From the NCBI RefSeq assembly GCF_002843425.1, contig NZ_NKXO01000027.1, positions 1-52,151 of the forward strand: DNA of 52,151 nt, in the 5' to 3' direction. Every line of letters begins with the position of its first letter. Positions within the stretch are counted from its first letter, which is position 1. Position numbers and translations under genes: made by a program. The notes below the pieces were generated by a model. The model worked only from the letters and a program-made list of their open reading frames with translations, did not search any database and had not been told where the DNA came from. This DNA is from Raineya orbicola. Lineage in GTDB: Bacteria > Bacteroidota > Bacteroidia > Cytophagales > Thermonemataceae. Below, piece after piece: positions 13,666-17,740 of the stretch.

Positions 13666-14763
13666 ATGGCAAAGAAAAAGACAAATTCATCGCAACTATC
13701 ACCCAAAGAATTTTTATACAAATACTTGAATAATGCTTCGCCCACAGGTTTTGAAGTAAGCGGTCAGCAGATTTGGCTGGAATACATCAAGCCTTTTATT
13801 GATGACTATTACATAGATGCTTATGGCAGTGTAGTAGGTATCATCAACCCCAAAGCAGAATACAAAGTTGTGATAGAAGCTCATTCTGATGAAATTTCTT
13901 GGTTTGTAAATTACATCACGGATAGCGGTTATATTTACGTAAGACGCAACGGCGGTTCAGACCCTGTGATAGCTCCTTCTATGCGTGTGAATATTCACGG
14001 CGATAAAGGCATCGTGAAAGGTATTTTTGGCTGGCCCGCTATTCACGTTCGCCACGAGAAAGACCGCGACCCTATGCCTGATATGAAAAATATTTACATT
14101 GACATTGGTTGTTCTACCAAACAAGAAGTTTTGGATAAAGGTGTAAATGTGGGTTCAGTAATTACTTTTGCTGATGAAATGTTTGAACTCAACGACCGTT
14201 ATTATGTAGGCAGGGGCATAGATAACCGCATAGGAGGTTATATGATTGCCCAAGTGGCTCGCCTGCTTTCTGAAAATAAAAAGAAGTTGCCTTTTGGATT
14301 GTACATTGCGAATTGTGTGCAGGAAGAGATTGGTTTGCGTGGTGCTGAAATGGTTGCTCACGCTATCAAGCCTGATGTAGCAATTATTACAGATGTTTGC
14401 CACGATACACAAGCTCCGCTTTACAATAAAATTATTGACGGCGATTTCACAGCAGGGAAAGGACCTGTACTGACGTTTGGTCCTGCGGTGCAGGTCAATG
14501 TACTAAAAATGCTTTTTGAAGTGGCTCAAAAAAATAACATTCCTTATCAGAGAGCGGCGGTTTCACGTTCTACGGGTACGGATACCGATTCTTTTGCTTA
14601 TTCTAATAGTGGTGTGCCTTCGGCTCTGATTTCATTGCCACTCAAATATATGCATACCACCGTAGAAACCGTGCATAAAGATGATGTAGAAAATATCATC
14701 AAACTTATGTATGAGTTTCTTTTGCAACTGCCCAACAAACACGATTTTAGGTATTTTAGCTAA
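13666..14763 (+). CDS. M42-family metallopeptidase (glutamyl aminopeptidase/endoglucanase-like)
   Basis: A 365-residue cytosolic enzyme of the M42 group. Metal ligands and catalytic residues can be placed: His in EAHSDEISW, Asp in GRGIDNRIGGY, the Glu pair in VQEEIGLRGAEM, Asp in ITDVCHDT, and His in YMHTTVETVHKDDV near the C terminus. M42 peptidases form tetrahedral dodecamers that trim N-terminal residues from peptides. The family was first annotated as cellulase because of CelM, so 'endoglucanase' names should be ignored. It follows yidC on the same strand. Confidence 0.93.
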   Translation: MAKKKTNSSQLSPKEFLYKYLNNASPTGFEVSGQQIWLEYIKPFIDDYYIDAYGSVVGIINPKAEYKVVIEAHSDEISWFVNYITDSGYIYVRRNGGSDPVIAPSMRVNIHGDKGIVKGIFGWPAIHVRHEKDRDPMPDMKNIYIDIGCSTKQEVLDKGVNVGSVITFADEMFELNDRYYVGRGIDNRIGGYMIAQVARLLSENKKKLPFGLYIANCVQEEIGLRGAEMVAHAIKPDVAIITDVCHDTQAPLYNKIIDGDFTAGKGPVLTFGPAVQVNVLKMLFEVAQKNNIPYQRAAVSRSTGTDTDSFAYSNSGVPSALISLPLKYMHTTVETVHKDDVENIIKLMYEFLLQLPNKHDFRYFS

Positions 14764-14786
14764 TGCTAAATTTTTGGAAAAAAACC

Positions 14787-14792
14787 GCTAGC
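14787..14792. promoter_or_regulatory. CTAG-containing palindrome (GCTAGC) just upstream of the MTase start
   Basis: The sequence GCTAGC lies 4 nt before the TTG start. MjaI-family enzymes recognise CTAG, so if this pair does too, its own methylation or binding site sits at the translation start of the MTase gene. This is an inference; CTAG sites occur elsewhere in the window. Confidence 0.3.
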
Positions 14793-14796
14793 TACC

Positions 14797-16092
14797 TTGA
14801 AAACACAACATCTCATAGTTAATGGCGATAGTAGAAAAATGACTGAATTGGCAGATAATTCGGTACATTTGATTATTACTTCGCCGCCCTATTGGCAACT
14901 CAAAGACTATGGAGTAGAAAATCAAATTGGTTTTCACGATAGCTACGAAAAATACATCAATCATTTGAATTTGGTATGGAAAGAGTGCTATAGGGTACTA
15001 CATAAGGGTTGCCGTTTATGTATCAATATAGGAGATCAATTCGCAAGGTCGGTGTATTATGGGCGTTACAAGGTCATTCCTATTCGTGAAGAGATTATTA
15101 AGTTCTGTGAAACTATTGGGTTTGACTATATGGGAGCTGTTATATGGCAAAAAGTAACTACCTCTCATACCACAGGCGGGGGAGTGCAGATGGGGTCTTA
15201 TCCTTATCCAAGAAATGGTATCTTAAAGTTAGATTATGAGTTCATACTCATTTTCAAAAAGTTAGGTGAAGCCCCAAAACCCAGTAAAGAGCAAAAAGAA
15301 TTTTCTAAAATGACAGCTGATGAATGGAACACCTTTTTCGCAGGGCATTGGTGTTTTCAAGGGGTAAAGCAAAAAGGGCATATTGCTATGTTTCCCGAAG
15401 AGTTACCATACAGACTGATAAAAATGTTTTCTTTTGTAGGGGAAACAATTTTAGACCCTTTTGCAGGCAGTGGTACCACTGCATTAGTAGCCAAAAAGCT
15501 AAACAGAAACTCAGTTTCTTATGAGATAAATCCCGATTTTATTTCCATTATCAAAGAAAGACTGCGGGTTTATCAGAAAGATATTGATGAAACTTCTTAT
15601 GAATTTGTAATTCAAGAGCCTTTGAAAATTGATTTTGAGCAAGAAATTCAAAATTTGCCTTATATTTTCAAAGATCCCCATTTGTTTGATAAGAAAGTAG
15701 ATGTTAAACAATTACTATTCGGGTCAAAAATTGATAAACACTCTTTCTCCGCAAGACAAGAGCTGTTTTCTGTTAAGGAAATCATCAGTCCTGAAAAAAT
15801 GATTTTAAGTAACAAATTGAAAATTAGACTTTTAGGAGTAAAACAAGATGAGAACTTGAATGGAAAAGCCGTCAAATTTTTGATAGATAAAGTAAAAGGT
15901 AAAAAAGTTTTTTGCAGATACGACGAACCTAAATTTGATGAGGAAAATAACTTGTTGGTTTACCTTTATCTTGAAAACAAAACTTTTATCAACGCTCATT
16001 TGATAAAAAATAAACTAGTCAGTGTAGATACAAGTCGGGAATATCGGTATAAGGAAAAATTTATAAAGCTTTTTAATCAAGAAAATGCCTAA
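14797..16092 (+). CDS. Beta-class DNA methyltransferase with a C-terminal SNase-like domain
   Basis: A 431-residue enzyme. Motif IV (TSPPYW, 28-33) comes before the AdoMet motif I (DPFAGSGTT, 220-228), the order of beta-class MTases; SPPYW favours N4-cytosine methylation. After about residue 320 a different domain follows: RLLGVKQDE (344-352), DENLNGKAVKFLIDKVKGKK, then YLYLENKTFINAHLIKNKLV. It resembles staphylococcal nuclease. Compared with SNase, Arg35 and Glu43 have matches (R344, E352) but Asp40 reads Lys349 and Arg87 reads Asn385, so catalysis is doubtful. The start is TTG at 14797, the only start that keeps the N-terminal region after the in-frame stop at 14767. An MjaI-type endonuclease gene overlaps its end by 8 nt. 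Confidence 0.88.
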   Translation: MKTQHLIVNGDSRKMTELADNSVHLIITSPPYWQLKDYGVENQIGFHDSYEKYINHLNLVWKECYRVLHKGCRLCINIGDQFARSVYYGRYKVIPIREEIIKFCETIGFDYMGAVIWQKVTTSHTTGGGVQMGSYPYPRNGILKLDYEFILIFKKLGEAPKPSKEQKEFSKMTADEWNTFFAGHWCFQGVKQKGHIAMFPEELPYRLIKMFSFVGETILDPFAGSGTTALVAKKLNRNSVSYEINPDFISIIKERLRVYQKDIDETSYEFVIQEPLKIDFEQEIQNLPYIFKDPHLFDKKVDVKQLLFGSKIDKHSFSARQELFSVKEIISPEKMILSNKLKIRLLGVKQDENLNGKAVKFLIDKVKGKKVFCRYDEPKFDEENNLLVYLYLENKTFINAHLIKNKLVSVDTSREYRYKEKFIKLFNQENA

Positions 16093-16720
16093 AGAGTGGA
16101 TTTTAAATTCAGCTGTTAATCGTTTTCAACTTAATTTCAAGAAAAATGTTGGAGCGGTTTCTGAAGCTATACGAAAATGTTCTCCTAAAAACATAGAAGA
16201 GTGGCGTAATTATTATTTTCAAAATGTTAGGTCAAAAGAACATATTGAAGAATTGGGTAAAAGGTTATATGTAAAAGTTACGGAGGTGATTCAAGCAGAA
16301 GTGAGTGAAATTACGTTGGAAGACTGCATAAATTATATGCTGCAACTAGTGATAGATAGAACTTATGATGGATATGTAACTGAAATTCAGACTATTTATG
16401 GTCAATTACAAGCAGAGTTGGGAATAAAAATAGAACCTGCCCCCGATGAGTGGGATAGGTTATTTAATGTAGATTTTTACATAAAAATTGCTGAAAAATA
16501 TATTGGTTTGCAAATAAAGCCTATTAACAAAGGGATACAATTGCCTGAAATGTTCAAAGAATACGCTTTACAAGAAAAATCACACCAAGAATTTACAAAA
16601 AAATTTGGAGGGAAAGTTTTTTATTTGTTTTCAACAAGTGTTGAAGGTAAAAAAGAAATTCAAAATAAGGAAGTAATTGAGGAAATCAGAGCAGAAATTG
16701 AAAGATTGAAACAACTATAA
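16085..16720 (+). CDS. MjaI-family type II restriction endonuclease
   Basis: A 211-residue protein that begins MPKEWILNSAVNRFQLNFKK and contains EIQTIYGQLQ, PAPDEWDRLFNVDFYIKI and YIGLQIKPI. These are features I recall for the MjaI endonuclease family. The D...QxK pattern (NVDF then LQIKP) fits a PD-(D/E)xK-type active site with Gln replacing the usual acid. MjaI, from Methanocaldococcus jannaschii, cuts at CTAG; the same site here is likely but not proven. The gene overlaps the MTase by 8 nt, so the two are translationally coupled, protection gene first. Together they form a complete type II restriction-modification unit. Confidence 0.85.
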   Translation: MPKEWILNSAVNRFQLNFKKNVGAVSEAIRKCSPKNIEEWRNYYFQNVRSKEHIEELGKRLYVKVTEVIQAEVSEITLEDCINYMLQLVIDRTYDGYVTEIQTIYGQLQAELGIKIEPAPDEWDRLFNVDFYIKIAEKYIGLQIKPINKGIQLPEMFKEYALQEKSHQEFTKKFGGKVFYLFSTSVEGKKEIQNKEVIEEIRAEIERLKQL

Positions 16721-16762
16721 TTTTTTTTCGTTTTATATTTTTAGTATTTATCAAACTTTTCA

Positions 16763-17740
16763 ATGCCTATTCGTATAGAAGAGATACAAGCTCCTATTCA
16801 GAACGAAATGATGCTTTTTGAGCAGAAATTTCGTTCATTTATGCAAAGCAAAGTTTTTCTATTAGATACTATTACACACTACATTGTTAAGCGGAAAGGC
16901 AAGCAAATTCGCCCGATGTTTGTGTTTCTAATTGCGGGAGCTTGTGGGGGCATTACTGAAAAAACTTATCGTGGGGCTTCACTGATAGAACTGCTTCACA
17001 CGGCTACTTTGGTACACGATGACGTAGTAGATGACTCTATGTACCGAAGAGGTTTTTTTTCTATCAATGCTCTTTGGAAAAATAAAATTGCTGTACTGGT
17101 AGGAGATTATTTGCTTTCAAGGGGTTTGTTGCTTTCAGTAGATAATCAAGATTTTGACTTACTGCAAATTGTTTCTACCGCAGTACGCGAAATGAGCGAA
17201 GGGGAACTTCTGCAAATTGCCAAAGCCCGCAAGTTGGATATTACCGAAGAGGTATATTTTGAGGTTATACGGCAGAAAACGGCTTCATTGATAGCTTCTT
17301 GTTGTGCTGTGGGAGCTTGTTCGGCGGGGGTAAGCCCTGAAATTCAAGAAAAAGCTAAACTTTTTGGTGAAAAAGTTGGCATTGCTTTTCAAATCAAAGA
17401 TGATTTATTTGATTATGGCGATGCCGAAATCGGAAAGCCCGTAGGGATTGATATTAAAGAAAAGAAAATGACTTTACCGCTCATTTATGCTCTTTCAAAA
17501 GCTTCTTGGCTTGAAAAGCGAGAAATTATTTTTCTCATCAAAAACCAAAGTCATAAGAATAGCACGGTGAAAAGAGTTGTGGAATTTGTGAAAAACAAAG
17601 GAGGCATTGAATATGCCCAAGAAAAAATGCAAAAATACTATCAGGAAGCTATTACACTGCTGAATAGTTTTTTGCCCCAAAATGAGTACAGCATATCCCT
17701 GCAAAAACTTTTACAATTTACTATTGAGCGTAATCACTAA
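16763..17740 (+). CDS. Polyprenyl diphosphate synthase
   Basis: A 325-residue all-helical trans-prenyltransferase with both Asp-rich motifs: LVHDDVVDDS (first) and QIKDDLFDYG (second), plus the GKQIRPMFVFL region that contacts the diphosphate. It elongates farnesyl diphosphate with isopentenyl diphosphate to a long chain, probably for the menaquinone side chain (a menC gene is further along the window) or another quinone. Chain length cannot be deduced. It follows the R-M pair by 42 nt on the same strand. Confidence 0.92.
   Translation: MPIRIEEIQAPIQNEMMLFEQKFRSFMQSKVFLLDTITHYIVKRKGKQIRPMFVFLIAGACGGITEKTYRGASLIELLHTATLVHDDVVDDSMYRRGFFSINALWKNKIAVLVGDYLLSRGLLLSVDNQDFDLLQIVSTAVREMSEGELLQIAKARKLDITEEVYFEVIRQKTASLIASCCAVGACSAGVSPEIQEKAKLFGEKVGIAFQIKDDLFDYGDAEIGKPVGIDIKEKKMTLPLIYALSKASWLEKREIIFLIKNQSHKNSTVKRVVEFVKNKGGIEYAQEKMQKYYQEAITLLNSFLPQNEYSISLQKLLQFTIERNH

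Follow-up and report, generated by a model that had tools for sequence, protein, structure and literature searches.

The closest described systems to the gene pair analysed here are the CTAG restriction-modification systems MthZI, MjaI and BfaI, in which, as in our pair, an endonuclease of the MjaI family occurs beside a methyltransferase; on pFZ1, the gene of M.MthZI adjoins a 'MjaI family restriction endonuclease'. M.MthZI, whose action on CTAG is known from experiment, is reported to be an m4C enzyme for this site, and an SPPY motif is reported for CTAG m4C enzymes (excerpts of PMC5867850). Whereas the MthZI, MjaI and BfaI methyltransferases are reported to have 303-364 amino acids (same excerpts), the enzyme of our pair has 431 and carries a domain related to staphylococcal nuclease (SNase). 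Its full-length architecture is shared by one entry of the defence-system collection PADLOC, the MTase_II model PDLC03259 (423 positions), which spans residues 3-425 with an E-value of 9.8e-178. This coverage means that the full-length family is already among the collected type II methyltransferases, but the model is described only as a type II methyltransferase and the SNase domain goes unmentioned.

A second point of reference is CcrM, which like our enzyme belongs to the beta class and has a short linker that leads to an extra domain at the C terminus. The CcrM domain binds DNA, namely the non-target strand, and its removal is reported to abolish activity; it differs from our tail in being SAND-like rather than SNase-like, and CcrM methylates adenine in GANTC (excerpts of PMC6787082). 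Our enzyme is a type II methyltransferase of the collected family and, by analogy, may work most like CcrM, with a different domain. The tail shares its fold with staphylococcal nuclease and has, like eTudor domains (excerpts of PMC7641849), lost catalytic residues, but it differs from both by its fusion to a DNA methyltransferase, a shortened active-site loop and the replacement of Asp40 mostly by Lys or Arg. No description of SNase-methyltransferase fusions, or of the identity or degeneracy of such a tail, was recognised in the literature searched, which included few subscription journals and not REBASE.

The window, i.e., the whole stretch of DNA analysed, comprises positions 1-52,151 of contig NZ_NKXO01000027.1 of Raineya orbicola, and the pair occupies positions 14797-16720. 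The two reading frames lie on the same strand and overlap by 8 nt (Table 1). A reading made from the sequence alone had proposed a beta-class methyltransferase, with TSPPYW ahead of DPFAGSG, and a MjaI-like partner. Both identifications held: the Pfam match and the order of motifs IV and I place the methyltransferase in the beta class, and the endonuclease belongs to the PF09568 (RE_MjaI) family, matching profile positions 1-164 of 164 with 167.2 bits (cut-off 22.7). In NCBIfam, all methyltransferase matches of the former were below threshold, and the CcrM model reached 53.8 bits against a cut-off of 830, so that the enzyme falls outside CcrM, its tail matching SNase instead. The NCBIfam thermonuclease model NucI matched residues 325-424 weakly (19.6 bits, cut-off 250).

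Table 1. Features of the methyltransferase-endonuclease pair, with positions in the window. Relative L028 was excluded from alignment A2 and is present in A3 and A4 only with its readable C-terminal part.
Feature	Position	Strand	Evidence
Beta-class DNA methyltransferase gene with C-terminal SNase-like domain, 431 aa, TTG start	14797..16092	+	PF01555, E 1.1e-42; PF00565, 22.6 bits
Methyltransferase core, residues 1-262	14797..15582	+	PF01555, residues 23-254; Foldseek TTHA0409 2zie, E 2.0e-19
Motif IV TSPPYW, residues 28-33	14878..14895	+	Invariant in 20/20 rows of alignment A2
Motif I DPFAGSG, residues 220-226	15454..15474	+	Invariant in 20/20 rows of alignment A2 except position 223
Conserved linker, residues 286-322, LPYxFxDPHxxDKKxDPKKLxFGSKID	15652..15762	+	Consensus of alignment A4; mostly low-confidence in models
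SNase-fold domain, residues 324-427	15766..16077	+	Pfam, AF2, Foldseek, VIA
Lys349 at SNase Asp40 position	15841..15843	+	HMM alignment to PDB thermonucleases; K 48, R 5 of 70 tails
Asn385 at SNase Arg87 position	15949..15951	+	HMM alignment; N 33, R 9 of 70 tails
MjaI-type restriction endonuclease, 211 aa, start within the end of the methyltransferase gene	16085..16720	+	PF09568, E 3.5e-49, residues 4-178

An SNase-like tail had been proposed for residues 310-431. The Pfam SNase profile PF00565 matched residues 355-420 above its cut-off of 21 bits, and the tail alone scored 25.6 bits. Searching the PDB with the single tail sequence gave no match; profile searches with the tail returned 1snd (E 0.025) and, using a 70-row profile, 3sr1 (E 2e-4). 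An AF2 model of the whole methyltransferase, built from 20 full-length sequences, had a mean pLDDT of 74, with 73-92 per ten-residue block in the tail, whose strands and helices follow one another in SNase order. In a Foldseek search of the PDB, methyltransferases ranked first (TTHA0409; CcrM 6pbd, E 1.7e-11), followed by staphylococcal nuclease 3t13 (E 1.1e-6, TMt 0.71, rmsd 2.5), so that structure prediction, named earlier as the check for this fold, returned the match. A model of the tail alone, from 70 sequences, was better defined (mean pLDDT 84, and 90-96 within the domain), gave a Foldseek E-value of 9.1e-8 with staphylococcal nuclease, and superposed on it in VIA-align with Z 16.4 and rmsd 1.7 Å over 109 aligned residues of 19% identity. 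Strands and helices of the tail succeed one another as bbb-a-bb-a-a, the arrangement typical of SNase.

The Pfam cut-off, the two AF2 models and the profile search rule out a chance match or weak-motif artefact, and in fold and descent the tail qualifies as a staphylococcal nuclease homologue by Pfam, Foldseek and VIA. While the fold proposed for the tail thus stood, its borders did not: the domain spans approximately residues 324-427, and residues 286-322 form a separate conserved linker. In the whole-protein model (pTM 0.63), residues 296-323 are below pLDDT 50 and the placement of the tail relative to the core is of low confidence. Descent of the tail from a staphylococcal-nuclease domain, as judged from predicted structures and profiles, is well supported, as is the architecture.

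The active site was examined by aligning the tail to PDB thermonucleases with HMMs. Of five alignments, two extend to Asp40, and in both a lysine is opposite this residue; asparagine faces Arg87, which bears out the substitutions called in the sequence-only reading and sets the window tail apart from active staphylococcal nucleases. Among 70 tails, which include close relatives so that the counts are not 70 independent cases, the Asp40 position is Lys or Arg in 53 and Asp in one (Table 1). That single row, L028, is without Arg87, and no tail combines Asp40 with Arg87. The Arg35 position is basic in 67 of the 70 (R 41, K 26); in the window enzyme the residues at the Arg35 and Asp40 positions are Arg344 and Lys349. 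The loop that bears Glu43 is shortened, and 69 of the 70 tails are net positively charged, with a median of +9.

As a control, we examined four free-standing SNase-like reading frames from the same phylum, which had matched the tail profile less strongly. All four (L226-L229) keep DGDT, Arg35, Asp40, Glu43 and Arg87, and their loop is 9-10 residues longer than in the methyltransferase tails. The intact site in these proteins indicates that the residues were mapped correctly and that the site is gone from the methyltransferase tails. On sequence grounds, the loss of metal and catalytic residues is well supported, and the former active-site pocket is predicted to have turned basic.

To what extent the tail is a property of a methyltransferase lineage was addressed in a scan of genome contigs, from which the best 80 of 499 relatives (L046-L125) were kept, so that the counts describe nearer relatives. 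At 46 of these 80 loci, the tail match spanned half of the profile or more. Relatives (the best 80 of 499 and those in the tree) carry the phylum labels Bacteroidota, Chlorobiota, Ignavibacteriota, Spirochaetota, Planctomycetota, Nitrospirota, Bacillota, Aquificota and archaea, nearly all as metagenome bins, whose labels can be wrong. In 395 genomes of the phylum of the window, PF09568 was found in 63 at E 1e-3 (61 above cut-off), and the tail profile matched in 90 at E 1e-3, the weak end including free-standing SNases. Among the 30 strongest tail matches, 28 were in one reading frame with a methyltransferase core and two ran off a contig end; none was a strong tail outside a methyltransferase.

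We built a quick tree from 100 cores, leaving out nine own-genome or duplicate loci (L002-L008, L033 and L057, the last on the same contig as L029) and incomplete cores; it put the window enzyme in a clade of 71 rows with an SH-aLRT value of 96. The tree has long branches and open forks and is used here for this clade rather than for detailed gains and losses. Within the clade, 64 rows are tailed, two are cut by contig ends and five have no tail in the same reading frame: L085 and L013 keep the core only, L095 and L099 have other C-termini, and L096 (666-1914) has core and tail in two overlapping reading frames followed by an endonuclease remnant. M.MthZI (L184) and other tail-less methyltransferases beside MjaI-type endonucleases are outside the clade, so the window enzyme, which is 32% identical to M.MthZI over residues 1-256, is not of the M.MthZI type. 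The eight M.MthZI-type rows, M.MthZI and seven relatives, form a clade of their own and have 80-114 residues after the core, compared with about 165 in the window enzyme, and the five that were scanned had no Pfam match to SNase. The other 21 rows outside the clade have 4-24 residues after the core in 20 cases and 78 in one. The tail belongs, as judged from these sequences, to one methyltransferase clade spread over many phylum labels.

The relation between tail and endonuclease was less strict. A nearby match to the endonuclease profile was present at 31 of the 46 tailed loci (best 80 of 499 relatives) and absent from 15, of which two (L050 and L097) are cut by a contig end and some may hide a distant member, since true PF09568 proteins score only 23-43 bits with this profile. 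One genome, G045, has a tailed methyltransferase gene and no PF09568 gene. Conversely, MjaI-type endonucleases pair also with tail-less methyltransferases. Pfam scans of the neighbours at five of the 15 loci, together with PADLOC, revealed various partners. In L069 (2064-5341), the Septu genes PtuA and PtuB (E 2.4e-151 and 1.7e-63 in PADLOC) lie upstream, with a gap of about a dozen bases to the reading frame of the tailed methyltransferase; the neighbour is a DUF2326/PDC-M68B protein in L066 and a TIR/NB-ARC/TPR protein in L098. In L053 (3100-3765), a 222-aa reading frame overlaps the end of the tailed methyltransferase gene, at the usual place of the endonuclease; it had no match in Pfam, NCBIfam or PADLOC and is possibly an unrelated endonuclease. 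Ordinary genes, read by eye, also occur as neighbours in this group.

Judging from the 15 loci without an endonuclease match, the tail probably acts for the methyltransferase and not for the pair as a whole. This bears on the possibility that the tail is a protein-protein module which, instead of contacting DNA, binds the endonuclease, the second subunit of a dimer or some other host protein. Dead SNase domains have become interaction modules elsewhere, as in the eTudor domain (excerpts of PMC7641849), and N394, N399, Y389 and G347 are among the most conserved tail positions, each kept in 69 or 70 of 70 tails, which would fit such a role if they lie at the surface. However, the tail is kept where no MjaI-type endonuclease was found, also beside PtuA and PtuB, and MjaI-family endonucleases occur with tail-less partners; for these reasons DNA binding is favoured over docking of the endonuclease, while dimerisation through the tail may yet occur. 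We give a protein-docking tail a minor, though not negligible, chance of being correct.

A tail that merely stabilises the fold, or that is a passive leftover of the fusion, would explain why L085 and L013 keep the core without it, a finding that indicates that the tail is not indispensable in every case. It would also agree with the faster evolution of the tail, which is 65% identical to that of genome G010 compared with 84% for the core, the core being the more constrained part in dN/dS as well. Against this, the tail is present in 64 of 71 clade rows over many phylum labels, and the charge pattern at the former active site is kept. For the SNase part, eight pairs of relatives were tried, and five gave dN/dS values of 0.079, 0.112, 0.104, 0.064 and 0.084, ratios that are rough because three of them rest on dS values of 1.9 to 3.7. 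A sixth pair (L041/L039) gave 0.48 at a dS of 0.016, with too few changes to weigh, and the ratio was undefined in two. Purifying selection on the tail is thus supported by rough ratios, and the low values in five of six pairs make a tail in decay unlikely; we consider a stabilising or leftover tail improbable. An active nuclease, acting for instance on foreign or nicked DNA, is very hard to defend, since the fold, the basic Arg35 position and the Arg found at the Arg87 position in 9 of 70 tails are offset by the absence of any tail with both Asp40 and Arg87, by the shortened Glu43 loop and by the four free-standing relatives, which keep all the residues that the tails do not.

The specificity of the pair was approached through avoidance of CTAG. 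Trinucleotide composition predicts 548 CTAG sites in 240 kb of the pair's own genome, but 40 were found. In other genomes, CTAG was counted on 20-kb stretches (one of 10 kb), with the caveat that these genomes are not independent samples and that the groups compared are taxonomically dissimilar. In 21 genomes with a tailed enzyme and PF09568, 136 sites were found for 497 expected (pooled ratio 0.27, median 0.20), compared with 416 for 711 in 17 genomes with neither gene (pooled ratio 0.59, median 0.57; two-sided p = 0.0045). Six genomes in which PF09568 has a tail-less partner had 10 sites for 121 expected (p = 0.0029 against the same 17). The 21 genomes include G097, G133, G064, G071 and G191, whose tailed genes were recognised by the tail profile, and G009, whose endonuclease was confirmed by PF09568; kept apart from the groups were G398 (gene cut, 0 sites for 15 expected) and G045. 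In the 17 genomes, PF09568 was not found and the tail profile matched no more strongly than E 1e-13, the level of free-standing SNases; the weak matches, in G060, G011 and G043, had E-values from 1e-13 to 2e-8, and that of G060 is a free-standing SNase.

A similar difference was seen within genus g7, with 0 of 26 expected sites in G010, which has the endonuclease, and 45 of 71 in G045, which has not. On the other hand, G007 has neither gene and 0 sites for 27 expected, and G097 has both genes and a ratio of 0.71. CTAG was the scarcest palindrome in 12 of the 21 genomes with both genes and in 7 of the 17 with neither. Because the window enzyme stands apart from M.MthZI, its CTAG assignment rests on the family of its partner and on CTAG avoidance; CTAG is the likely recognition site of the pair. 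The TSPPYW motif points to m4C, and suggests that the window enzyme may produce this modification.

Three of the 15 CTAG sites of the window (14788, 16015 and 16346) fall within the 1.9-kb pair or immediately upstream of it, as might be expected if the pair arrived recently. Autoregulation through the site at 14788, located in a GCTAGC just before the start codon, was considered and rejected: only the window and L009, two of 20 rows, have a CTAG within 10 bases upstream, and a GCTAGC also occurs shortly behind this upstream gene in the genus mate G003, where the pair is missing. Other four-base palindromes are also scarce in the window, with observed over expected counts of 0/111 for CATG, 0/79 for GCGC, 5/118 for GGCC, 8/124 for GATC, 13/121 for TCGA and 15/70 for CCGG, next to 15/130 for CTAG. 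The 240 kb elsewhere in the genome (L126-L137) gave 2/563 for CATG, 3/401 for GCGC and 7/606 for GGCC. The genome contains 18 matches to the window methyltransferase, of which some are parts of the same gene; together with the extreme palindrome avoidance, this suggests many coexisting restriction-modification systems.

The surroundings of the pair were compared with those in related genomes. In the genus mate G001 (L236), the M42 peptidase and polyprenyl synthetase genes that flank the pair here are direct neighbours, the stop codon of one being 23 bases from the start of the next, and in G003 (L235) a different DNA methyltransferase (TSPPYN...DPFMGSGTT, read by eye) is found between them. 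G002 and four family members had no polyprenyl gene within the fetched flank and are uninformative in this respect. The empty site in one genus mate and the other methyltransferase in the second indicate that the pair was most likely gained by insertion at this place (window 14763-16763), a spot that has taken up another methyltransferase as well, and the gap between the two genes is possibly a small insertion hot spot.

In genus g96 (L215-L225 and L230-L233), many broken copies of the tailed methyltransferase gene are scattered, mostly 91-98% alike. The copies have recurrent internal deletion borders, e.g., at query positions 291/559 and at 511/994, where the joined ends have bases in common. 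Those that were compared have 3' flanks in common, and the copies are set between unrelated genes. A 230-base 5' piece of the tailed gene gave 40 matches in 12 genomes, at most nine per genome and intact genes included. These copies look like a repeat family derived from the tailed methyltransferase gene.

With these results, we propose a mobile type II restriction-modification pair in which the endonuclease very likely cuts CTAG and the methyltransferase very likely protects this site by N4-cytosine methylation, as the partner family and CTAG avoidance suggest for the site and the TSPPYW motif for m4C. The tail would be a basic module that holds nucleic acid and so assists the methyltransferase in gripping or opening its site, in a manner resembling the unrelated C-terminal domain of CcrM. 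DNA holding is preferred since the job of the tail seems to be that of the methyltransferase, and since fold and basic pocket agree with it; from fold, charge and persistence without the endonuclease we infer such a role. The suggestion in the sequence-only reading that the tail may serve for DNA binding or interaction and not as a nuclease remains the best reading, with the active site lost and the pocket basic. Overall, the explanation we favour, with reasonable rather than high confidence, is a type II system for m4C at CTAG in which the methyltransferase has taken up a dead SNase domain to hold DNA.

A more specific proposal is put forward tentatively and has distinctly lower odds. The dead SNase domain may hold the non-target strand throughout this large cross-phylum clade of CTAG methyltransferases, with the former Ca2+ site, where Lys or Arg at the Asp40 position lies beside the kept Arg35, gripping a backbone phosphate and helping to open or kink the DNA. 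It would then be an independent solution to the job of the SAND-like domain of CcrM, one that the M.MthZI clade perhaps also accomplishes with its own dissimilar extension.

If the tail does hold DNA, the enzyme would be a clear example in bacteria of a methyltransferase that grips DNA with a converted nuclease fold. Two methyltransferase clades share the MjaI endonuclease family and have C-terminal extensions between which no similarity was detected. The tailed enzymes would offer a natural test of whether small beta-class methyltransferases with a four-base site need a C-terminal DNA clamp.
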